Source of the DNA: Catenulispora sp.
Lineage (GTDB): Bacteria > Actinomycetota > Actinomycetes > Streptomycetales > Catenulisporaceae
Direction of reading: 5' to 3'
Length of the DNA stretch: 61,529 bases
NCBI GenBank assembly: GCA_013361685.1
Contig: JABFXP010000022.1
Location: forward strand, 1 to 61,529
Shown here: positions 4,605-56,553 of the stretch, one piece after another
Layout: the number at the start of each line of letters is the position of its first letter
Numbering within the stretch: position 1 is the first letter of the stretch
Notes under the pieces: generated by a model
Database searches by the model: none
What the model was told of the DNA's origin: nothing
Seen by the model: the letters and a program-made list of their open reading frames with translations, nothing else
Position numbers and translations under genes: made by a program

Positions 4605-5186
4605 GTGGGCAAAGTGGTCATGTACAGCTCGGTGTCGGTGGACGGCTTCATCGCGGACGAGAACGACGACCCCGGACCGCTGTTCGACTGGTTGACCAGC
4701 GGTGACGTCCCGTTGGACGACAGCGGCGCGGTGCGGGTGTCGCAGCCGTCCTACGACCACACCCGGCCGTACTGGGACCAGATCGGGGTGACGGTCGTCG
4801 GCCGCCACGTCTTCGACATGACGGACGGCTGGGACGGGACGCCTCCGAGCGGCATCGACCACGTGGTCGTCGTGACGCACCGGCCGGCGCCCGAAGGCTG
4901 GGACCCCGAGGCGCCGTTCCACTTCGTCGACGGCGTCGAGGCGGCCATGGCCGAGGCGCAGAAGCTCGCGGGTGAGCGCATCGTCGAGGTCGCCGCCGGC
5001 GACGTCGGCGGCCAGGTGCTCGCCGCGGGCCTGATCGACGAGGTGCGCATGGACGTCGTCCCCGTCGTCTTCGGGTCCGGCAAGCGCTACTTCGGGTCGG
5101 TCCACGCCCAACACCTGTTGGAGGATCCTGAGGCTGTGGTTCAGGGCAACCGGGTGCTTCACCTGCGCTATCCGGTACGCCGTTGA
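4605..5186 (+). CDS. dihydrofolate reductase-family protein (RibD C-terminal-like)
   Basis: 193 aa, GTG start preceded by a good AGGAGAG site. The opening 'VVMYSSVSVDGFIADEND', the central 'TVVGRHVFDMTDGW' and 'HVVVVTHRP', and the C-terminal 'VAAGDVGGQVLAAGLIDEV' are the NADPH-binding fold signatures of the RibD C-terminal/DHFR-like family. Actinomycete members are mostly uncharacterised NAD(P)H reductases rather than true folate enzymes. It follows the AraC gene and may be regulated by it. Confidence 0.85.
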   Translation: MGKVVMYSSVSVDGFIADENDDPGPLFDWLTSGDVPLDDSGAVRVSQPSYDHTRPYWDQIGVTVVGRHVFDMTDGWDGTPPSGIDHVVVVTHRPAPEGWDPEAPFHFVDGVEAAMAEAQKLAGERIVEVAAGDVGGQVLAAGLIDEVRMDVVPVVFGSGKRYFGSVHAQHLLEDPEAVVQGNRVLHLRYPVRR

Positions 5187-46789: not shown

Positions 46790-48382
46790 TCACATCTCGG
46801 CAGACAGCTCCGCACCAGCATCAGCCCTCGCACCACTCCCGGCCCCGGCCCCAACCCCCGACCCCACCGCATCCCCCTCCGCCTTCCCCGGCGCACGCAC
46901 CACCGCGAACACCGCACCGGCAAGCAACACAACGATCGCAATACCGAAGGCCGTGTGCGTAGCGTCAACAAAAGCCTGCTGCGCAGCATCCATCAAGTTC
47001 TTACCCTTCGGCCCGAACTGCGCGAGCTTGCCAGAAGCGCCCTTCACAGCCGCGATCGACGACTGCGCCCCCGCCGCCACCTGCGGCGGCAGCCCCTGCG
47101 TCGCACCGGCGACGTGCGACCGATACGCGGAGCTCAACGCACTCCCCAGCACCGCGATCCCCAGCGCGCTGCCCAGTTCGCGCGACAGGTCGTTCATCGC
47201 CGAACCCACGCCCTGCTTGGACTCCGGCAGCGAGGACACGATCGCAGTAGTCGCAGGCGTACCGGCCAGTCCCATGCCGAGGCCGAACAGCGCCAGCCCG
47301 ACAGCCAGGTGCCAGTAGACGAGGTGCGTGCTCAGCGTCGTCAGGACAGCCAGCCCGGAGGCGCTGAACACCAGCCCGAGCGGGAGCACCCGCTTCGCGC
47401 CCACCCGGGCGGCGATCTTCGGCGCATTACGGGCGACGGGAACCAGGAACACCGGCATCGGCAGCAATGCCAGGGCGGCGCGGAAGGGCGACAGGTCGGC
47501 GACGTACTGCAGGTACTGCAGGATGATGAAGAACAGTCCGAAGCTGCCGAAGAACTGGATCGTGATCACGCCGGATCCGGCGCCGAATCCCTTGAGCCGG
47601 AACAGCCGCACATCCAGCATCGGTTCGTCGCGGCGCAGCTCCCATCCGATGAACGCGGCCAGGGCGAGACCGCCGACCACGAATCCCGTCACGGTCAGGG
47701 CGTCGCTCCAGCCGCGGTCGGGACCCTCGATGATGCCGAGCACGATGCCGACCGCCGCCAGCAGCGAGAACAGTCCGCCGACCGGGTCCAGGCGCGGGGC
47801 GTCGGCGTCGCGGGAGGTGGGGATGAGCACGAGCGTGCCGATCAGGGCGACGGCGGCGAGGGCGACGTTGAGGCCGAAGAACGAGCTCCAGGCGAAGAAC
47901 TCCAGCAGCGTGCCGGAGGCCAGCAGGCCGAGCACCGCGCCGCCGCCGGCGACGCCGACCCACACGCCGACCGCCCGGCCGCGTTCCTCCGGCGGGAACG
48001 ACGTGGTGATGATGGACAGGGTCGACGGCATGACCGCCGCCGCGCCGAGTCCCATCGCCGCGCGCAGGCCGATCAGCGCTGACGGGGATCCCACGAACAT
48101 CGCCACCGCGGCGGCGGCTCCGAAGACGGCCAGACCGGCCAGCAGGGTGCCCTTGCGGCCGTAGCGGTCGCCGATGGCGCCGGCCGGGAGCAGGAAGCCG
48201 ACGAAGACCAGGGTGTAGGCGTCGACGATCCAGATCACCTGGGTCTGCGAGGCGCCGGTGGCGGCGGACAGGTCGGGCAGGGCGACGTTCAGGCCGCTGA
48301 CCGCCGAGACCACCATCATCAGCGCCAGGGCGACGACGGCCAGCACGAGCTTGCGGCGGCGGGGGGTGAGTTCGGCAGACAT
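46790..48382 (-). CDS. MFS drug exporter, EmrB/QacA (DHA2) type
   Basis: 530 aa, ATG start with GAGGAC upstream. Fourteen predicted helices, motif A 'GAIGDRYGRKGTLLAGLA' and motif C-like 'GVWVGVAGGGAVLGLLASG'. A long Gly/Ala/Asp tail ends the protein. Divergent from a TetR gene across a palindromic region, the standard layout for a repressor-controlled multidrug exporter. Distinct in sequence from the MFS gene at 38819. Confidence 0.9.
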   Translation of the reverse strand: MSAELTPRRRKLVLAVVALALMMVVSAVSGLNVALPDLSAATGASQTQVIWIVDAYTLVFVGFLLPAGAIGDRYGRKGTLLAGLAVFGAAAAVAMFVGSPSALIGLRAAMGLGAAAVMPSTLSIITTSFPPEERGRAVGVWVGVAGGGAVLGLLASGTLLEFFAWSSFFGLNVALAAVALIGTLVLIPTSRDADAPRLDPVGGLFSLLAAVGIVLGIIEGPDRGWSDALTVTGFVVGGLALAAFIGWELRRDEPMLDVRLFRLKGFGAGSGVITIQFFGSFGLFFIILQYLQYVADLSPFRAALALLPMPVFLVPVARNAPKIAARVGAKRVLPLGLVFSASGLAVLTTLSTHLVYWHLAVGLALFGLGMGLAGTPATTAIVSSLPESKQGVGSAMNDLSRELGSALGIAVLGSALSSAYRSHVAGATQGLPPQVAAGAQSSIAAVKGASGKLAQFGPKGKNLMDAAQQAFVDATHTAFGIAIVVLLAGAVFAVVRAPGKAEGDAVGSGVGAGAGSGARADAGAELSAEM

Positions 48383-48418
48383 GGCGTCCTCGCAGAGTTG
48401 AGGTGGAGCCGGACCGGT

Positions 48419-48456
48419 ATTCTGTACATACAGAATTCTGCACCGCTAGAATTCTG
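48419..48456. promoter_or_regulatory. TetR-type operator cluster
   Basis: ATTCTGTA-CA-TACAGAAT (48419-48436) is a perfect inverted repeat. It overlaps CAGAATTCTG (48431-48440), and AGAATTCT recurs at 48449-48456. All lie in the 99-bp gap between the MFS and tetR start codons. Confidence 0.8.
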
Positions 48457-48481
48457 CATGTCAAGAATTTCGGAGGGAAGC

Positions 48482-49102
48482 ATGGCTGAGCAGGCCAAGA
48501 AGGCGACGGCCGCCAAGCGCGGCCGCCGCACCGACGGCGGCCAGGCGAAGGAAGCGATCCAGGAGGCCGCCTGGCGCCTGTTCGCCGAGAACGGCTTCGA
48601 CCGCACCTCGGTCCGCCAGATCGCCCTGGCCGCCCACGTCGACCCGATGCTGGTCACGCACTACTTCAAGACCAAGGCCGGCCTGTTCGCCGCGATCATG
48701 CGCCCCCCGGTGGAGCCCTCCGAGGCGATCGCCTTCGTCCTCGCCGAAGGTCCGGACCACGCCGGCGAACGCATGGCGGCTTTCATCCTGCGCACCCTGG
48801 AATCCCCCGACCGACGCAAATGGATCGTGGCGATGGTCCGCGCCGCGACGGCCGAACCCGAGATCGCCGCGGTGGTCCGCGAACGCTTCGCCGAGACGAT
48901 CCTGATCCCGCTCGCCGAAGCCATCGGCTCCTCCGACCCCGAATACCGCGCCACGCTCGTGATGTCCCAGCTCATCGGACTGGCGATGACCCGCTACATC
49001 GCCGCCGTCGAGCCCATGGCGTCCCGCCCGGCCGATGAAGTCGCGGCTGACATCGCGGAGACGTTTCAGCGCTACCTGACCGGGCCGCTCAGCGCCGGGT
49101 AA
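48482..49102 (+). CDS. TetR-family transcriptional regulator
   Basis: 206 aa from ATG 48482 (GGAGGG upstream). N-terminal HTH: 'IQEAAWRLFAENGFDRTSVRQIALAAHVDPMLVTHYF' (short parts: LFAENGFDRTSVRQIA, HVDPMLVTHYFKTKAGLF). The C-terminal ligand domain resembles the TetR_C_17/AcrR-like group ('MAAFILRTLESPDRRKW'). It is expected to repress the divergent MFS exporter and itself through the ATTCTG palindromes. Confidence 0.9.
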   Translation: MAEQAKKATAAKRGRRTDGGQAKEAIQEAAWRLFAENGFDRTSVRQIALAAHVDPMLVTHYFKTKAGLFAAIMRPPVEPSEAIAFVLAEGPDHAGERMAAFILRTLESPDRRKWIVAMVRAATAEPEIAAVVRERFAETILIPLAEAIGSSDPEYRATLVMSQLIGLAMTRYIAAVEPMASRPADEVAADIAETFQRYLTGPLSAG

Positions 49103-49276: not shown

Positions 49277-49933
49277 ATGCGTTTCCGGGATCGCACCGAG
49301 GCCGGTCAGACGCTGGCCGACCAGCTGCGCGGCATGGATATGCACGACCCCGTAGTACTGGCGCTCCCCCGTGGCGGCGTACCGGTGGCCGTTGAGATCG
49401 CAGCCGCTCTGCACGCCGACGTCGACGTGTTCGTCGCCCGCAAAGTCGGGCTGCCAGGCCACGAGGAATTCGGCGTGGCGGCGATCGCCGAGGGCTCCGA
49501 CGAGCTGGTTCTCGGCGAGGGCGCCGCCAGCTACGGCCTCGACCGGCACGAACTGGCCGAACTCGCGGCCCGGCAACAGCAGGAACTGCGGCGGCGAGTG
49601 ACCGCCTATCGAGGCGACCGCAAACTGCCGGAACTCGCCGGCCGAGACGTGATCCTCGTCGACGACGGCGTCGCCACCGGCATCACCGCCGAGGCCGCGT
49701 TGAAGTCACTCCGCACCCAGCGACCACGCCGCCTGATCCTGGCAGCGGGCGCCTGCGCGGCGGATTCGAAACGGCGGCTGGCACGCATCGCCGACGACGT
49801 CGTGTGCGCGACGTCGCCCCGGGACTTCGTCGCCGTCGGCCTCTGGTACACGGACTTCCGGCAGGTCAGCGATCAAGAGGTGCTTGATCTGCTGCACAAG
49901 GCCGAACCTACGGTTCGGAAGGCACGGCGATGA
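49277..49933 (+). CDS. phosphoribosyltransferase-fold protein
   Basis: 218 aa, ATG start with AGAGGTG. PRPP-binding motif 'VILVDDGVATGITAEAALK' and PPi loop region 'VLALPRGGVPVAVEIA', then 'VFVARKVGLPGHEEFGVAA'. This group of short actinobacterial PRTases is often found with stress proteins, and the true base acceptor is unknown. Its 3' end overlaps the convergent BASS transporter gene by 26 bp. Confidence 0.87.
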   Translation: MRFRDRTEAGQTLADQLRGMDMHDPVVLALPRGGVPVAVEIAAALHADVDVFVARKVGLPGHEEFGVAAIAEGSDELVLGEGAASYGLDRHELAELAARQQQELRRRVTAYRGDRKLPELAGRDVILVDDGVATGITAEAALKSLRTQRPRRLILAAGACAADSKRRLARIADDVVCATSPRDFVAVGLWYTDFRQVSDQEVLDLLHKAEPTVRKARR

Positions 49934-50957
49934 ACGCAGCTGTCGCGATCGGCGTCGGCGCCTGCTCAACAGCTGCTTCAGACTCGGCGCCCCACCGCCG
50001 GGCAAGCACCGTGCAGGCCATCAGCTGTATCTGGTGGAACAGCATCAGCGGCAGCACCATCAGCGGCAGTTCGTGAGCCGGGAACAGCACCGCCGCCATC
50101 GGCAGGCCGCTCGCGAGGCTCTTCTTCGAACCGCAGAAGATCAGTGTGATCCGCTCCGGGCGATCGAAGCCGAGGCGCCCCGCCGCACGACCGGTCAGCG
50201 TCAGCACCGCCGTCAGCAGCAGTCCGCAGCACGCCAACAGCGCGACCAGCCGCGCCGGCGACACCGTGTGCCAGACCCCTGCGACCATGCCCTCGCTGAA
50301 GGCGCTGTAGACGACCAGCAGGATCGAGCCTCGATCGACCAGCGTCAGCATCGGCTTGTGCGCGGCGATCCAATCCGCGATCCAGCGGCGCGCCACCTGC
50401 CCGGCCAGGAAGGGCAGCAGCAGCTGGGCCACCAGCGCGGTCACCGCGCCGCCGTCCACCCGCACCGCGCCGCCCAGCAGCGCCGAGGCCAGCAGCGGCG
50501 TCACCACGATCCCGGCCAATGAGGAGAACGACGCCGCGCACACCGCCGCCGCGACGTTTCCCCGGGCCAGCGAGGTGAACGCGATCGACGACTGCACGGT
50601 CGAGGGCAGCAGCGTCAGGAACAGCACACCCTTGGCCAGCTCCGGTCCGAGCACCGGCCGCGCCGCCGCCTCAGCAGCCAGCCCGAGCAGGGGGAACAGG
50701 ACGAAGGTCGACGCCAGGATCACGGCGTGCAGGCGCCACTGTTTGATGCCGGCCCACGCAGCACGCGGCGACAGACGTGCGCCGTAGAGGAAGAAGAGCA
50801 GGCCGATGACGAAGACCGTGACATGCGACAGGCCCTTCGCCGTTCCGCCGCGCGCCGGAAGCAGCGCCGCGCCCGCGACGGTGGTGAGGATCGCCAGCAG
50901 ATAGGGATCCACGCCGACGTCGGCCATTTTGAGGCGCAGGGACTTCAGCATGGTCAT
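49908..50957 (-). CDS. bile acid:sodium symporter-like (BASS/SLC10A7-type) transporter
   Basis: 349 aa with about ten helices. 'GLLFFLYGARLSPRAAWAGI', 'LLPSTVQSSIAFTSLARGN' (the conserved NxxxxA-like crossing helix) and 'FCGSKKSLASGLPMA' are hallmark segments of the SLC10A7-like branch. Sodium-coupled uptake of an organic anion is likely. Its ATG overlaps the amidase stop (ATGA), which makes it the third gene of an amidase operon and suggests it imports the substrate or a product anion. Confidence 0.88.
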   Translation of the reverse strand: MTMLKSLRLKMADVGVDPYLLAILTTVAGAALLPARGGTAKGLSHVTVFVIGLLFFLYGARLSPRAAWAGIKQWRLHAVILASTFVLFPLLGLAAEAAARPVLGPELAKGVLFLTLLPSTVQSSIAFTSLARGNVAAAVCAASFSSLAGIVVTPLLASALLGGAVRVDGGAVTALVAQLLLPFLAGQVARRWIADWIAAHKPMLTLVDRGSILLVVYSAFSEGMVAGVWHTVSPARLVALLACCGLLLTAVLTLTGRAAGRLGFDRPERITLIFCGSKKSLASGLPMAAVLFPAHELPLMVLPLMLFHQIQLMACTVLARRWGAESEAAVEQAPTPIATAAFIAVPSEP

Positions 50958-52204
50958 TCAGGATCCTTATTCGTGACGTGCTGGCCGGTCGGGTGGAGTG
51001 GTTGTCGGTCGGACTGGGAATCGTGGCCGGCGGCGGCCTGGATCCGACCTTCCCCCTCTTCGCTCTGCCGCCGCGCCAAGTGCACCAGCCGTTCATCAGC
51101 GCCGGGTTCGCCGACCAGGCTGAGCCCGATCGGCGCGCCTTCGACCATCGCTGCGGGGATGCTGACGGCAGGTGCGCCCGCTGCTCCAGCCAGGCAGGTG
51201 AAAAGCAGCGTCGCCGCTCGCCGCTGCGGATCACTCGCCGCCGAACCGAGGCGCGGAGCCGGGCCCGGCGCTGTGGGGATCGCCAGCACCGCGCCGGACA
51301 GCCGGTCTCGCAAGAGCGCTGCCGTCTCTTCAAGAACGGCCCGTCCGGCCTCAGCTTCCGCAGCGGTCACTTCCCTGGCCGCCCGGAACCGTGCACCGAC
51401 GCCCGGGCCGAATCGCGGATTCTCCCGCTCGATCCACGCGCCGTGTGCCTCCCAGGCCTCAAACGCCTGCACGACGCGGAACGCCTCCCGCGTCCGCTCC
51501 CAGAGCCCTGATCCGTCGAACAACGCCGCTCGGTCCACGGCCAGATTCAGCCGCTCGACCTCGGGCTCCAACGCCGCAGCGACGGCCGGCTCCACCACGG
51601 CCCACACGTCTGACGGCATCAGCACCCGTATGACCTCGGCCGTCTGCGGCCCCGGCTCGAGCAGCCACGAGCACAGCTCAAGCAGGTGCGCGTCCCGCGT
51701 CATCAGCCCGGGCACGTCGAACGATCGCGCGAGAGGCACGATCCCCTCCCGCGACACCCGCGCGTGTGTCGGTCGCAGGCCGTAGAGGCCGCAATACGAG
51801 GCCGGGACGCGGATCGAGCCGGCCGTGTCCGTTCCCAGCCCCACGTCGGCGAGCCCGGCGGCGACCGCCGCCGCCGTTCCGCTCGATGAGCCGCCCGTGA
51901 CCCGGTCCGGCGCGGCGGCGTTGCGCGGGGCGCCGTAGTGGAGATTCGTCCCGCCGAGGCTGTAAGCGAGCTCGTCGGTGTGGGTCTTCCCCACGAACGA
52001 CAACCCCGCGCGCCGCAGCAGCGCCACGACCTCGGCGTCCCGCTCGGCCACCTCGTGCGTCGCCAGCCACAGCGGATGCCCGCAGCCGGTCGGCAGGCCC
52101 GCCACGTCGATGACGTCCTTCACCGCGAGCCGCAGGGCGCCCTCAGGTGTGGCCGCAGCCGCCGACGGGTCCACCGGCACCCAAGGCACAAACGGATCGA
52201 TCAC
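50954..52204 (-). CDS. amidase-signature hydrolase (AtzE/GatA-like)
   Basis: 416 aa, somewhat short for the family (usual about 450-480). Ser-cisSer-Lys triad visible: Lys29 in 'LAVKDVIDVAG', Ser106 region in 'GGSSSGTAAAVAAG', nucleophile Ser130 in 'GTDTAGSIRVPAS'. No fused allophanate domain. The C-terminus has a polar tail after 'LVHLARR'. Hydrolyses a carboxamide to acid and ammonia; the substrate is unknown. Coupled by ATGA overlaps to the FmdA/AmdA gene upstream and the transporter downstream. Confidence 0.9.
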   Translation of the reverse strand: MIDPFVPWVPVDPSAAAATPEGALRLAVKDVIDVAGLPTGCGHPLWLATHEVAERDAEVVALLRRAGLSFVGKTHTDELAYSLGGTNLHYGAPRNAAAPDRVTGGSSSGTAAAVAAGLADVGLGTDTAGSIRVPASYCGLYGLRPTHARVSREGIVPLARSFDVPGLMTRDAHLLELCSWLLEPGPQTAEVIRVLMPSDVWAVVEPAVAAALEPEVERLNLAVDRAALFDGSGLWERTREAFRVVQAFEAWEAHGAWIERENPRFGPGVGARFRAAREVTAAEAEAGRAVLEETAALLRDRLSGAVLAIPTAPGPAPRLGSAASDPQRRAATLLFTCLAGAAGAPAVSIPAAMVEGAPIGLSLVGEPGADERLVHLARRQSEEGEGRIQAAAGHDSQSDRQPLHPTGQHVTNKDPE

Positions 52205-53298
52205 AGACCCGCCTCCCCGAGCGCGGCCAGGTGTGCCTTCGGAATCCGGCAGTGCACGCCCTTCACCAGATCGACGACCTGCGAAACATGGAAGTCGCAG
52301 GCTGCTGACAAGTACGCGAGCGCGATCGCCGGCGGCACCCCGAACCGCTCGCCCAGGAACGTGATCGCGTTCCGGGTCGCCGTCCGCAGCGCCTCGTCGA
52401 GGTCGGCGTCGAGCCCGATCACCACGTGGTCGGCCGCGGTCTCGGCGTACGGCGCGGCGAGGGCCTTCGCCATCCGGCGGACCGGTTCGTCGGAGCGGAC
52501 GGTCAGCCGCAGCGTGGCCCGCAGCGGCGCCTCGAACGCCGTCAGCGCCACTTCGCCGTCGCCCTGGGAGAAGTGCGGATCGCCGGTGTAGAACAGGGCT
52601 CCACCGGTCTGGACCGGGAGATACAGCTTCGAGCCCTGAGTCAGTAGCCTGATGTCCAGGTTGCCGCCGTGCGGCCCCGGCGGCACGGAGTGCACCGGCT
52701 GGTCGGTCGCCGCCGCCACCCCGAGGATCCCCAGGAACGGTGCCAACGACCAGCGCAGCGCCCGGCCGTCGCCCAGCGGCAGCCGCCCGTGCTCGTCGTC
52801 GTCGGCGAACGCCACCAGGCAGACCGGCGGCACCACGCCGTCCGGCCCCGGCTCCCCGGCCGGGTACTCGCCGGGCAGCGCGCCCCGGCCGTGGCGGTTG
52901 CTGATGACGCCGTACGGGGCCCGTCGCCGCAACGACAGCACCTCGACCTCCAGCACGTCCCCGGGCCGGGCCCCGCGCACAGCCACCGGGCCGGTGACGA
53001 CGTGCGAGCCGCGGGTGGCGGGCTCGTGCCGCAGGACCGAGGCGATCTCGATGGCGTCGGCCAGCAGCCCGGACCGCGCGATCCCGGCCGCGCCGAAGAA
53101 GGCCGCCGGGTCGCCGCCCTGATCGGCGAGCAGCCCTTCGTGGCTCACGGTGTCGACCGTCACCGAGGTGCCGGAATCCACCGCCAGCACCGGCGCCGAG
53201 GCGGCGTTCGGCAGCAGCCCCCAGGAGACGGTCTCCGGCGTCGAGCGCAGGTACCGCGCGCCGTCGATCGCTCCTTGGTCTGGCTGTAGTACGTTCAC
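52201..53298 (-). CDS. acetamidase/formamidase family (FmdA/AmdA) protein
   Basis: 365 aa, GTG start with GGGAGGGG. FmdA/AmdA signatures: 'VTGPVAVRGARPGDVLEVEV', 'SVPPGPHGGNLDIRLLTQGS', 'PVQTGGALFYTGDPHFSQGDGE' (in part, the metal-binding HxxQGxGE) and 'ATRNAITFLGE'. Zinc-dependent hydrolysis of small amides to ammonia. First gene of a three-gene leftward operon whose promoter carries a GntR-like operator, divergent from the GntR gene. Confidence 0.92.
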   Translation of the reverse strand: MNVLQPDQGAIDGARYLRSTPETVSWGLLPNAASAPVLAVDSGTSVTVDTVSHEGLLADQGGDPAAFFGAAGIARSGLLADAIEIASVLRHEPATRGSHVVTGPVAVRGARPGDVLEVEVLSLRRRAPYGVISNRHGRGALPGEYPAGEPGPDGVVPPVCLVAFADDDEHGRLPLGDGRALRWSLAPFLGILGVAAATDQPVHSVPPGPHGGNLDIRLLTQGSKLYLPVQTGGALFYTGDPHFSQGDGEVALTAFEAPLRATLRLTVRSDEPVRRMAKALAAPYAETAADHVVIGLDADLDEALRTATRNAITFLGERFGVPPAIALAYLSAACDFHVSQVVDLVKGVHCRIPKAHLAALGEAGL

Positions 53299-53328
53299 AA
53301 CGAGCCCCTCCCAGTCCGGTCGGGGACG

Positions 53329-53340
53329 ATTGTATTCAAT
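53329..53340. promoter_or_regulatory. GntR operator 1 (amidase operon/gntR divergent promoter)
   Basis: ATTGTATTCAAT, an inverted repeat with flanking G and C (GATTG...CAATC), lies in the 53-bp gap between the FmdA and GntR start codons. Its core TTGTATTCAA differs at one base from the site before the amidohydrolase gene. Confidence 0.8.
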
Positions 53341-53351
53341 CGAGGTAGACG

Positions 53352-54146
53352 ATGAAGAGTGGGGTCGGCCACACCGGCTCGACCGAGGGGGCTGCCGGGA
53401 CGGCCGGGGCCGGTGGTGCTGCCGGTGCGGCGCAGCCCGCTGACGTCGCCGAACCCGCCCGCAAACCCGGCCGCGTCTCGGCCCACGAGGTCAGCCGGGC
53501 CATCCGCGACGACATCATCCGCGGTGTGCACGCCCCGGGCGCCCGGCTCGCCGAGGAGGCCCTGTCGGCCCGGTACGGCGTCTCCCGGGTCCCGGTCCGA
53601 GAGGCTTTGCGCACATTGGAGGCCGAAGGCTTCGTCCGTTCACGCCCCTACGCCGGGGTCGCGGTGGCCGAACTCGACGACGCCGAAGCCGAGGACCTGC
53701 TGGAGATCCGGGCCCGGCTGGAGCCGCTGGGCGCCGGCCGCGCCGCCGCGCGCCGCACCCCCGAGCAGCTCGGACGTCTCAAAGAACTGCTGCTCCTGGC
53801 CGACGACGCCCTGGCCGCCGACCGCCTGGGCGAGCTGGCCCGGCTCAACAGCCGCTTCCACGAAGTGCTCGCGCAGGCCTCCGGCTCACAGACCCTGACC
53901 CAGCTGGTCACGCAGCTCAGCTGGAAGATCGCCTGGGTCTACGCGGTCGAGCTGCCGCGCCGCGCCGACGACTCGTGGCGGGAGCACGCGGAGATCGTGG
54001 CCGCGCTGGAAGCCGGCGATCCGGATCGGGCCGCGAAGGTGGTGGCGAAGCACATCGCCCAAGCTCAGAAGGCATATCGGCGCCGTCCGTCGGGCGCGGC
54101 GGACGCATCGGGCGGGGCTGCCGGGAGTGCGGAGTCGGAAACATAG
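53352..54146 (+). CDS. GntR-family regulator, FadR subfamily with FCD domain
   Basis: 264 aa, ATG start. After a Gly/Ala-rich N-terminal extension of about 40 residues comes a winged helix ('AIRDDIIRGVHAPGARLAEE', 'YGVSRVPVREALRTLEAEGF') and an FCD effector domain with 'LEIRARLEPLG', 'LNSRFHEVLAQAS' and 'HAEIVAALEAGD', which supply its metal-binding His/Asp set. TnGTATACnA-type sites bound by this subfamily occur before both neighbouring operons. It likely represses them until a carboxylate ligand appears. Confidence 0.93.
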   Translation: MKSGVGHTGSTEGAAGTAGAGGAAGAAQPADVAEPARKPGRVSAHEVSRAIRDDIIRGVHAPGARLAEEALSARYGVSRVPVREALRTLEAEGFVRSRPYAGVAVAELDDAEAEDLLEIRARLEPLGAGRAAARRTPEQLGRLKELLLLADDALAADRLGELARLNSRFHEVLAQASGSQTLTQLVTQLSWKIAWVYAVELPRRADDSWREHAEIVAALEAGDPDRAAKVVAKHIAQAQKAYRRRPSGAADASGGAAGSAESET

Positions 54147-54180
54147 ACGTTGCCTGGCACGTCTTTGATCGCAACACGGT

Positions 54181-54190
54181 TTGTATACAA
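54181..54190 (+). promoter_or_regulatory. GntR operator 2 (before amidohydrolase)
   Basis: TTGTATACAA, a perfect palindrome, ends only 8 bp before the amidohydrolase ATG, so bound repressor would block the start region directly. No clear Shine-Dalgarno site fits in this gap. Confidence 0.8.
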
Positions 54191-54198
54191 CCTTGCCC

Positions 54199-55506
54199 AT
54201 GCCAGATCTCCTGCTGCGGCGAGCACGGATAGCCGACGACGCGCCGCTCGTCGACATAGTGGTCCGCGACGGCCGGATCGCCGCCCTCGGCCCGGGCGCG
54301 GCCGACGGCGAACCGGCATCGGAGGCGAAGCCTGAGGCGGAGCTTGAGCCAAAGCCCGAACCGAAGCCCGGCATCGCAGAGCTCGACTGTGCGGGCCGGG
54401 TCGTGATCCCCGGCCTGATCGAGTCCCACCTGCACCTCGACAAGGCCCTGCTGGACCGCGAACGCCCCAACCTGGAGGGCACGCTCGCCGGCGCCATAGC
54501 CGTCACCGGTGAACTCAAGCGCGGCTTCACCGTCGAGAACGTCCGGAACCGGGCCCGCACGGTCCTGGAGACCGCGATCACCCACGGCGCGACCCTGATC
54601 CGCGCCCATCCCGACGTCGATCCGATCGTCGGACTCCTGGGCCTGGACGTGGTGCTCGGCCTCAAGGAGGAGTACCGGACCGCCGTCGACATCCAGGTCG
54701 TCGCTTTCCCGCAAGAAGGCATCTTCAAGGCGCCGGGAACGCTCGAGCTGCTGCGCGAAGCGCTCAAGCGCGGCGCTGACGTCATCGGCGGCTGCACCTA
54801 CAACGAAGCGGACCTGGACGACTGCCACCGGCACGTCGAAACGGTCCTGGACCTCGCCGTCGAGTTCGGCGTCCCGGCCGACCTGCACGCCGACTTCGCC
54901 GACGACGTCTCCGATCCCCGCTACGCCCTGGCCGGCTACATCGCCGAGGCCACGTCCGCGCGCGGCCTGCAGGGCAGCGTCGCCCTGGGGCACATGACCT
55001 CCCTGGCGGCCCTGAACCCGGCGGAGCGGGCCGTCGTCCTCAAACAACTCGCCCAGGCCGGCGTCGCGGTGATCCCGCTGCCCGCCACCGACATGCACCT
55101 GGGCGGACGGCGCGACGAGGCCAACGTGCGGCGCGGGGTCGCGCCCGTCCGCGACCTGTGGGAGGCCGGCGTCACCACCGCCTTCTCCTCCAACAACGTC
55201 CGCAACGCCTTCACCCCCTACGGCAACGCGGACCTGCTCGACATCGGCCTGTTCCTGGCCCAGACCGGACACCTGTCGTCCCCGGACGATCTGGCCCGCG
55301 TGCTGGCGATGGCCACCACCGAGGCGGCGGCCGTGGTCGGCGTCGCCGAAGACTACGGGCTGCGCGTCGGCGCCAAGGCCGACCTGGTCGTCCTGGACAC
55401 CCTCGCGGTCGCCGACGCGCTGCTGGACCGGCCGGTGCGCACGGCGGTGGTCAAGGGCGGGCGGATCGTCGCCCGGACGACGAAGACCACGGCTCTGTCG
55501 CTGTAG
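54199..55506 (+). CDS. cytosine-deaminase/AtzC-like amidohydrolase with altered active-site residues
   Basis: 435 aa from ATG 54199. Composite amidohydrolase: an N-terminal and C-terminal beta-sandwich flank the barrel. HLHLDK (His77, His79, Lys82) and His230 ('DLHADFADD'), His265 ('LGHMTS') match family metal/catalytic sites, but the position of the usual Glu after the third His is Phe233 and the usual strand-8 Asp is Asn332 (SNNV instead of SDNV). An EPKPEPKP-type acidic insert (about 40-58) is unusual. A ring-opening or deaminating role on a cyclic amide is expected if the site is active. Confidence 0.85.
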   Translation: MPDLLLRRARIADDAPLVDIVVRDGRIAALGPGAADGEPASEAKPEAELEPKPEPKPGIAELDCAGRVVIPGLIESHLHLDKALLDRERPNLEGTLAGAIAVTGELKRGFTVENVRNRARTVLETAITHGATLIRAHPDVDPIVGLLGLDVVLGLKEEYRTAVDIQVVAFPQEGIFKAPGTLELLREALKRGADVIGGCTYNEADLDDCHRHVETVLDLAVEFGVPADLHADFADDVSDPRYALAGYIAEATSARGLQGSVALGHMTSLAALNPAERAVVLKQLAQAGVAVIPLPATDMHLGGRRDEANVRRGVAPVRDLWEAGVTTAFSSNNVRNAFTPYGNADLLDIGLFLAQTGHLSSPDDLARVLAMATTEAAAVVGVAEDYGLRVGAKADLVVLDTLAVADALLDRPVRTAVVKGGRIVARTTKTTALSL

Positions 55507-55601
55507 CGATACGGCAACACCCGCCCAATAACACCTTCCGGGCACCGGTGCCCACCAACGGCTCTCACCGACGACCCCCATCAACGCTACGGAGAATCAT
55601 C

Positions 55602-56177
55602 ATGCGCGAACGCATCCCGCACGAGATCGCCGCCTCCATCCTGGCCGCGACCACCGCCTTCATCGGCGGCACCACCCTGAACCTGCCGCCGTGGGCGATC
55701 TTCATCTCCTGGGCCGGCACCTTCCTGGCCGGCGGCCCGAGCCTGGCCGTGGCGAAGCGTTTCTGGCTGGCGATGCCGGCCGGCTCGGCCTTCGCCCTGG
55801 CGATCGTCTTCATCGACCAGCACATCGGCGACAAATTCGGCTCAGGCCGGGTGGCCCAGGACGCGATGCTCGCGCTGATCATCCTGGTCGTCAACAGCAT
55901 CCTGATGTACGCCGGCCGCCTGAAGCTGCTCTCGCTGATCCCCGGCATGTTCCTCGGCTTCGCGTCCTACTTCGCCACCTTCTTCGGCGGCTTCGGCTTC
56001 AAGGAGGGCAACATCTGGGCCGCGTGGGTGAGCGTCGTAGCCATGAACGCCCTCGGCCCGGCCTTCGCCTACCTCGCCGGCAAGCTGACGTTCCCGGTGG
56101 CCGTCGCCGCCAAGGCCGAAGACGTCTCGGCGGCCAAGCTGGACACCACCCCGGCCGTGGCAGTCGCAGATGCCTGA
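55602..56177 (+). CDS. DUF1097-type membrane protein
   Basis: 191 aa from ATG 55602 (ACGGAG upstream). Five or six hydrophobic helices with 'STLNLPPWAIFISWAGTFLA'-like and 'LIPGMFLGFASYFATFFGGF' segments, as in DUF1097 proteins. Family members often sit beside amidohydrolases and purine or pyrimidine catabolic genes and are thought to be permeases or accessory membrane proteins. It overlaps the next gene by 8 bp and follows the amidohydrolase by 95 bp. Confidence 0.85.
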   Translation: MRERIPHEIAASILAATTAFIGGTTLNLPPWAIFISWAGTFLAGGPSLAVAKRFWLAMPAGSAFALAIVFIDQHIGDKFGSGRVAQDAMLALIILVVNSILMYAGRLKLLSLIPGMFLGFASYFATFFGGFGFKEGNIWAAWVSVVAMNALGPAFAYLAGKLTFPVAVAAKAEDVSAAKLDTTPAVAVADA

Positions 56178-56553
56178 TCCGCGCGTGAACGAGCCGGCAG
56201 CGCTGACCGAGATGCGGGAGGCGTTCGCCCGCTACGAGAAGGCCCTGACGACGAACGACATCGCCACCCTCGACGAACTCTTCCATGACAGCCCCCACAC
56301 CATCCGCCTCGGCGCGGGAGAGGAGCTGTTCGGCTACCCCGAAATCGCCGAGTTCCGGCGACGACGACCGGCCGCCGGGCTGAACCGGGACGAGGTCCGC
56401 TCGGAGGTGACAGTGTTCGACGACAGGTTCGCGGTCACGAGCTTGGTGTTCACTCGCGACAACGTGGCCGGCGTCGGGCGACAGACGCAGACATGGGTGC
56501 GGTTCGCTGAGGGCTGGCGGGTCGTCGCAGCGCACGTGTCGCAGCGGGGATGA
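56170..56553 (+). CDS. AtzH/HpxZ-like (DUF3225, SnoaL-fold) protein
   Basis: 127 aa. 'FARYEKALTTNDIATLDELF', 'SPHTIRLGAGEELFGYPEI', 'FTRDNVAGVGRQTQTWVRF' and 'GWRVVAAHVSQRG' closely follow the AtzH/HpxZ pattern. HpxZ belongs to oxalurate (purine) catabolism and AtzH acts as a dicarboxyurea amidohydrolase in cyanuric acid breakdown. Its presence next to an AtzE-like amidase argues for a ureide-type pathway. ATG overlaps the DUF1097 stop. Confidence 0.88.
   Translation: MPDPRVNEPAALTEMREAFARYEKALTTNDIATLDELFHDSPHTIRLGAGEELFGYPEIAEFRRRRPAAGLNRDEVRSEVTVFDDRFAVTSLVFTRDNVAGVGRQTQTWVRFAEGWRVVAAHVSQRG

Follow-up and report, generated by a model that had tools for sequence, protein, structure and literature searches.

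A conserved amidase-AtzH-FmdA gene cluster in Catenulispora as a predicted variant of the oxalurate branch of purine catabolism

The HPX and ALL routes are described forms of the oxalurate branch of purine catabolism. HpxW is described as an oxamate amidohydrolase (PMC12625717, PMC5270733), and HpxY is called an oxalurate amidohydrolase in the text of PMC12625717, one figure legend of which labels HpxY otherwise. AllFGH makes oxamate from oxalurate (PMC11326118), and ureidoglycine aminotransferase provides a described route to oxalurate in Bacillus subtilis (PMC5270733). Enterobacteria are reported to carry a ggt-atzG-atzE-atzH set beside a transaminase and an allantoate amidohydrolase (PMC6219798). 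In cyanuric acid breakdown, AtzE converts 1-carboxybiuret to 1,3-dicarboxyurea, from which AtzH probably forms allophanate; AtzH is reported to convert dicarboxyurea in the reconstructed pathway and to need Tyr22 and Arg46 for catalysis (PMC6219798). Here, we compare these systems with seven genes of the soil actinomycete Catenulispora sp. (GenBank assembly GCA_013361685.1) that encode a BASS-type transporter, an amidase, an FmdA/AmdA-family amidase (FmdA), a GntR-FCD regulator, a CodA/AtzC-fold amidohydrolase, a DUF1097 membrane protein, and an AtzH/HpxZ protein. They lie in a 61,529-nucleotide stretch of contig JABFXP010000022.1, the whole of which is referred to as the window.

A preliminary description of this DNA proposed a ureide-type catabolic cluster in which ring opening is followed by stepwise release of ammonia, and held that the gene set matches no known pathway. 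Conserved oxalurate-branch gene context supports the first proposal, and the order of reactions is plausible. The lack of a matching pathway was not borne out, since the parts map onto the oxalurate branch as known from the HPX and ALL routes. The cluster exists as described, is conserved, and is more specialized than it seemed at first; it is best read as a new variant of the oxalurate branch with a candidate new ring-opening enzyme, and it is not categorically new.

A predicted route from oxalurate to oxalate

From protein family, key residues, and gene context, we infer all substrates and reactions of the cluster, which we interpret with moderate confidence as a GntR-controlled regulon degrading oxalurate to oxalate via oxamate. 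The amidase would take the terminal ammonia off oxalurate to give N-carboxyoxamate (step 2), the AtzH/HpxZ protein would decarboxylate this product to oxamate and CO2 (step 3), and FmdA would hydrolyze oxamate to oxalate and ammonia (step 4), giving a net conversion of oxalurate + 2 H2O to oxalate + 2 NH3 + CO2. Steps 2 and 3 are predicted by analogy with the AtzE/AtzH pair. Ahead of them, the amidohydrolase would form oxalurate by opening a cyclic ureide, with parabanate as the likeliest candidate (step 1); ring opening of the parabanate type is the weakest step, and we regard it as doubtful. The DUF1097 and BASS proteins are assumed to be transporters.

For comparison, 492 candidate stretches were found and confirmed with an FmdA-ortholog profile, and the best 80 of them were taken; together with the window, they make 81 loci. 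Neighboring genes in these loci were sought by tblastn with one representative per family, and family names rest on those representatives. As controls, 24 FmdA paralog loci (identity of ≤38%) were picked from the order to which the window belongs. A wider comparison of 117 loci comprises the 81 main loci, 12 further loci, and the 24 controls, with three contigs counted twice.

The amidase passes the PRK08310 model (415 bits; cut-off, 391) and fails both AtzE models (176 versus 461 and 169 versus 426), while the last open reading frame (ORF) of the cluster passes the HpxZ equivalog NF033625 (164.5 bits; cut-off, 135). Amidase residues K29, S106, and S130 were kept in 51/51 matches from the 80 comparison loci; Tyr22 and Arg46 of AtzH are present in the window protein and were kept in 30/30 matches. 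Where both proteins were detected, AtzH and the amidase formed one ORF in 24 of 30 comparison loci. A reverse search of 396 genomes of the phylum with the fused AtzH-amidase of Cryobacterium gave 26 nonself matches, and FmdA was found in the 1.5-kb flanks of five of the seven best matches versus 0/19 of the others. Such a fusion fits the hand-over of an unstable intermediate.

Each of the two gaps flanking gntR contains a single palindrome-like site, TTGTATTCAA at 53330 and TTGTATACAA at 54181. Across the whole draft genome, TTGTATNCAA occurs in two places only, both of them in these gaps, and the reversed control pattern does not occur at all. In the window, TTGTATWCAA has no further occurrence, and 100 shuffles yielded none. 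The motif was first spotted by eye and then tested; an inverted-repeat search of positions 53250 to 53400 returned a single overlapping GC-rich palindrome, located inside fmdA. Because TTGTATNCAA is restricted to the gntR-flanking gaps genome-wide, the seven genes probably form one regulon under local GntR control, with GntR as the predicted regulator that would bind these sites and govern both operons. Streptacidiphilus jeojiense (locus L056) has the same two-sided gene arrangement and a site pair in the same two gaps (positions 5165 and 5940); Nocardia sp. alder85J (L052) shares the arrangement, with no gntR detected there. With a looser pattern, TCGTATACRA sites were found in three Glycomyces loci and in L173, and none in loci L068, L078, L087, L104, and L123, which carry AllFG and/or carbamate kinase genes, or in L110. 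TTGTATNCAA is also present in four unrelated loci (L094, L122, L196, and L203).

Gene neighborhoods of FmdA

Within 3.5 kb of FmdA, 52 of the 81 loci (window included) have a PRK08310-type amidase, and 30 have AtzH within 11 kb. Of seven purine/ureide genes, two or more were found within 11 kb in 37 loci; in 36 loci, allantoate amidohydrolase and a PucG-like aminotransferase (ureidoglycine-glyoxylate aminotransferase [UGXT]) occur within that distance, 34 of them also with the amidase. AllF and AllG were detected in four loci (L068, L078, L104, and L123), each also with carbamate kinase and each with an amidohydrolase-DUF1097 pair like that of the window; a fifth carbamate kinase, in L087 (an 8.5-kb contig), is without AllFG. 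The amidase and AllFG never occur together (0/81), and neither AllFGH nor carbamate kinase was found in the window. Amidohydrolases of the same type as that of the window, with asparagine in place of a catalytic aspartate (Asn type, see below), occur in 12/81 loci, and DUF1097, adjoining the amidohydrolase, occurs in 9/81. None of these neighbors was found beside the 24 paralogs (0/24), and the 12 further loci, three of which repeat main ones, gave a similar picture. The FmdA clade is thus linked to two alternative oxamate-producing enzyme sets, both absent beside the 24 paralogs. Since AllFGH yields oxamate and AllFG is an alternative to the amidase, both sets would lead to oxamate immediately ahead of FmdA. 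The neighborhood search therefore recovered the co-occurrence in other genomes on which the preliminary description had staked its proposal, both in the 52 amidase-linked loci and in the close counterparts L056 and L052.

The representative aminotransferase is closest to the solved ureidoglycine-glyoxylate aminotransferase 3nnk (2.5e-165) and to PucG 3isl (2e-131). Allantoate amidohydrolase, 5-hydroxyisourate (HIU) hydrolase, 2-oxo-4-hydroxy-4-carboxy-5-ureidoimidazoline (OHCU) decarboxylase, allantoinase, uricase, FdrA/AllF, AllG, AllH, and PucR all score above curated cut-offs. The kinase scores above the cut-off of one carbamate kinase subfamily model but below that of the arcC equivalog. 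The seventh purine/ureide family is an Asp/Glu/hydantoin racemase, given the label HpxA in this analysis.

The same data bear on whether this is an ordinary amide utilization cluster of the acetamide/formamide type with unrelated neighbors, a reading suggested by the FmdA family name and nothing more. The window FmdA fails the formamidase equivalog NF045496 by a wide margin (81.6 bits; cut-off, 500), the multigene linkage is conserved and absent beside the 24 paralogs, and the operator-like sites are shared by the cluster and exclusive to it within the genome, so that we regard this explanation as very unlikely.

FmdA relatives also occur in other surroundings. Two more distant loci among the 12 further ones (L044 and L045; 45 to 46%) have no amidase within 3.5 kb, and the proteobacterial relatives in Psychrobacter (L094) and Acinetobacter (L233) have none of the neighbors sought. 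In Streptomyces and Frankia (L035, L036, L050, L051, L053, L054, L057, and L124), the window-type FmdA is linked to a creatininase-family protein, a cupin, and an isochorismatase-family hydrolase, with the addition of ABC and FAD oxidase genes in Streptomyces or a luciferase-like monooxygenase in Frankia; another upstream chemistry is possible in this context.

The Asn-type amidohydrolase and its possible substrates

In the amidohydrolase superfamily, the metal-binding aspartate on strand beta-8 is generally taken to be required for catalysis. The window protein is CodA/AtzC-like in fold and in most motifs (6nbo, 4r7w, and CodA; about 26 to 32% identity), and it has Asn at the beta-8 position, where CodA/AtzC enzymes have Asp (N338, numbered from the ORF starting at 54181). 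That TTG start lies inside the operator-like palindrome, and the ATG at 54199 is therefore the likelier start. A tree of 49 relatives separates 16 Asn from 33 Asp proteins by one branch (87/93). The Asn group comprises the window protein, other Actinomycetota proteins, two alphaproteobacterial plasmid proteins, and one protein of Enterococcus faecalis (44% identity).

Asn at this metal-ligand position could mean a dead enzyme, in which case the amidohydrolase would be a binding or regulatory pseudoenzyme that opens no ring, and the cluster would use imported oxalurate or oxamate. The replacement is indeed found in all 16 subfamily members on the tree. However, the HxH motif, the beta-5 and beta-6 His residues, and the Lys are kept in the window protein and in the Asn-type relatives aligned or read from tblastn, unlike what decay would leave, and the subfamily is spread over three phyla; we consider a pseudoenzyme unlikely.

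Gene context suggests what an active enzyme might produce. Among the 12 Asn-type loci of the main set, seven have the amidase, four have AllFG, and one has the kinase only (on a short contig); four further Asn-type loci (L038, L040, L043, and L173) include two with AllFG, one with the amidase, and one with neither. The two alphaproteobacterial genes have different neighbors. In E. faecalis (L231:2001-13221, NZ_CP143580.1), the Asn-type gene lies in a cluster with PucR, AllF-AllG (read as a single 1,003-amino-acid ORF), DUF2877 (AllH-like), carbamate kinase, and AllD, together with an MFS transporter, a symporter, and a 451-amino-acid protein without a family match. PMC11326118 cites oxamate transcarbamylase (OXTCase) activity in crude Streptococcus faecalis ATCC 11700 extract and also a 1965 article with induction by parabanic acid in its title. 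An oxalurate-producing role fits best, with parabanate as the simplest cyclic precursor; barbiturate-like rings are possible substrates. The records containing the E. faecalis cluster and the Acinetobacter FmdA relative (L233, CP040042.1) are very large plasmid records with chromosome-like genes (ordinary metabolic genes in L231; serB, psd, and phoBR in L233) and may be mislabeled chromosome pieces.

In degradation of the barbiturate type, the CodA-fold enzyme would open a pyrimidine ring to ureidomalonate, and the amidase, AtzH, and FmdA would act on ureidomalonate and malonamate, which are one CH2 longer than oxalurate and oxamate and would allow parallel chemistry. The amidohydrolase fold best matches pyrimidine and triazine deaminases, and the window FmdA falls outside the UGXT-linked subclade. 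Moreover, DUF1097 (YcdZ) adjoins the preTA-hydA pyrimidine genes in Anaerostipes hadrus (PMC11036815) and is a predicted transporter of the CytR regulon in enterobacteria (PMC3454398). On the other hand, the company that Asn-type amidohydrolases keep in Actinomycetota and E. faecalis, namely, AllFG and carbamate kinase (in the latter also AllD), points to oxalurate, and a barbiturate pathway seems quite unlikely to us.

A triazine-like substrate, which the preliminary description also considered, found no support. Here, a cyanuric acid hydrolase elsewhere in the genome would supply 1-carboxybiuret, which the window amidase and AtzH would convert to allophanate, in line with the reported action of AtzH on dicarboxyurea. 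The preliminary description had pointed to possible cyanuric acid genes elsewhere in the genome, and a cyanuric acid amidohydrolase above the equivalog cut-off was indeed found, on C423; a link to the cluster was not. No match to this hydrolase was obtained in any of the 117 FmdA loci, TTGTATNCAA was not found on C423, the window amidase fails both AtzE models, and the C423 gene belongs to a set of its own with carbamate kinase and hydantoinase A/B genes. We thus rejected completion of an s-triazine pathway as very unlikely. The C423 set (L140:1128-8081), which also includes a carbon-nitrogen hydrolase and XdhC beside the caprolactamase-like hydantoinase A/B genes, constitutes a distinct ureide/lactam cluster of this genome.

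Endogenous purines were likewise considered and rejected as the source of oxalurate. The host genome has uricase, HIU hydrolase, OHCU decarboxylase, allantoinase, and allantoicase genes together on C626, but no match to AllD and no close ureidoglycine aminotransferase (best, 25% identity) were found in it. Neither known source of oxalurate was therefore found; the host would degrade purines no further than ureidoglycolate and urea, and an imported ureide is the more likely substrate of the window cluster. The genes not found could be located in the tenth of the genome that is unassembled.

Several observations weigh against degradation of oxalurate by the window cluster. The FmdA tree places the window in a 14-locus subclade (13 with the amidase, 1 without) in which UGXT and allantoate amidohydrolase genes are lacking, although one member (L061) has the racemase; all 36 UGXT-linked loci fall in another subclade of 45 loci, to which L102 (Gordonia) and L173, each with an Asn-type amidohydrolase, also belong. 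The substrate of the window FmdA could therefore differ. The five AllFG/kinase loci and 12 of 13 loci with RidA fall in two further subclades. In those 13 of the 81 loci, FmdA occurs with RidA and without the amidase, for which oxalurate chemistry offers no explanation; some other FmdA loci have none of these neighbors, and the UGXT loci L115 and L122 gave no amidase match. L043 has an Asn-type amidohydrolase and DUF1097, but no amidase or AllFG was found nearby, and paired operator-like sites were not found with the looser pattern in L052 or L102 despite most genes being common to them and the window. The paralog control was drawn from the window's order only, the host genome is a draft (9.53 Mb, 980 contigs, 90% complete), and no oxalyl-CoA decarboxylase above the cut-off was found in it. 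In the RidA loci (L062 to L065, L067, L069, L072, L077, L084, L095, L096, L114, and L119), FmdA directly follows the RidA-family gene, and 10 of the 13 also have a cluster with a family-3 solute-binding protein.

An oxalurate route of this kind would propose genes where they seem to be lacking so far, namely, for an AtzH/HpxZ role in oxalurate breakdown, for an alternative oxamate hydrolase, and for a candidate opener of the parabanate ring. It would also give a testable function to Actinomycetota proteins annotated merely as "acetamidase/formamidase" or "amidase" and bring forward an amidohydrolase subfamily with a consistent replacement of a residue supposed to be essential. Among the titles, abstract openings, and passages covered by a literature search that reached few subscription journals, none links FmdA with oxamate or assigns hydrolysis of parabanate to a gene. 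The most far-reaching version, in which the Asn-type enzyme opens parabanate or a like ureide without the canonical Asp, FmdA is a second, unrelated type of oxamate amidohydrolase, and both join the amidase and AtzH in a complete Actinomycetota route from cyclic ureide to oxalate, with related sets in Bacillota, is somewhat unlikely as a whole.

Locus organization and comparison with described systems

All seven ORFs of the preliminary description were recovered at or near the positions it gave, each with its family name backed by Pfam (Table 1). Both junctions of the leftward genes have 4-base overlaps; the ATGA coupling described for them applies to the BASS/amidase junction, and the other overlap is GTGA. 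A phosphoribosyltransferase-domain gene (49277-49933) is convergent with the BASS gene and overlaps its end by 26 bases. Past it (46790-49102) lie a TetR regulator and a divergent MFS transporter, apparently unrelated to the cluster.

Table 1. Genes and operator-like sites of the Catenulispora cluster (window coordinates)
Feature	Position	Strand	Evidence or location
SBF_like (BASS-type) transporter gene	49908..50957	-	PF13593 2.1e-90
Amidase-signature enzyme, PRK08310 type	50954..52204	-	PF01425 1.6e-67; NF006169 above cut-off
FmdA/AmdA-family amidase	52201..53298	-	FmdA_AmdA PF03069 3.4e-29
Operator-like site TTGTATTCAA	53330..53339	+	gap between fmdA and gntR
GntR-FCD regulator	53352..54146	+	GntR PF00392 1.1e-17, FCD PF07729 3.3e-27
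Palindromic operator-like site TTGTATACAA	54181..54190		gap between gntR and amidohydrolase gene
CodA/AtzC-fold amidohydrolase, Asn subfamily	54199..55506	+	Amidohydro_3 2.5e-29
DUF1097 (YcdZ-like) membrane protein	55602..56177	+	PF06496 4.6e-20
AtzH/HpxZ protein (NTF2-like)	56170..56553	+	AtzH-like PF11533 2.3e-48

The two putative transporters differ in conservation. The BASS importer, which the preliminary description counted in the gene set, is not a conserved member; it alone of the seven genes was without a match across the remaining 116 loci and is taken as accessory, perhaps serving anion import or oxalate export. DUF1097 is a candidate transporter of ureides/nucleobases or anions. Its low-confidence structure model (mean predicted local distance difference test score [pLDDT], 67.6) has part of the plant anion channel ALMT1 as the top Foldseek match (probability, 0.97; E value, 0.42), a weak hint of an organic-anion channel fold. 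Of 396 genomes of the phylum, 32 have DUF1097 above the cut-off, and among the 30 short DUF1097 loci kept, an amidohydrolase match was found only at the window's own; DUF1097 is therefore not specific to the pathway.

Compared with the cyanuric acid operon atzDGEHF, the cluster shares AtzH and an amidase-signature enzyme, but there is no AtzD, AtzG, or AtzF among the seven genes, and the amidase is not AtzE by model. With AtzC and CodA (N-isopropylammelide hydrolase and cytosine/5-methylcytosine deaminase), the amidohydrolase shares its fold and most motifs but has the beta-8 Asn in the whole subfamily sampled. Like the ALL branch (allFGHK of Escherichia coli), the cluster is predicted to convert oxalurate to oxamate, and in sister loci the same FmdA, amidohydrolase, and DUF1097 are accompanied by AllFG and carbamate kinase. 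Unlike that branch, the window has the amidase and AtzH, and FmdA would carry oxamate on to oxalate; in E. coli, oxamate is reported to be a dead end (PMC11326118).

The HPX branch (hpxWXYZ) has in common with the cluster HpxZ/AtzH, an amidase-signature enzyme, and a separate hydrolysis step for the oxamate amide, and sister loci add a transaminase and allantoate amidohydrolase. No AtzG/HpxX gene was called and no gap exceeds 95 bases among the seven genes (no AtzG model was run), and Pfam identified no Ntn-type oxamate hydrolase HpxW among them. In place of the ggt gene or Ntn hydrolase HpxW stands FmdA; the ggt of the enterobacterial ggt-atzG-atzE-atzH set is one that we take to be hpxW, a name that PMC6219798 itself does not give it. 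The cluster differs from the HPX branch further in that its amidase is of the PRK08310 type and not AtzE/HpxY, in that AtzH is often fused to the amidase in relatives, and in the addition of the amidohydrolase-DUF1097 pair.

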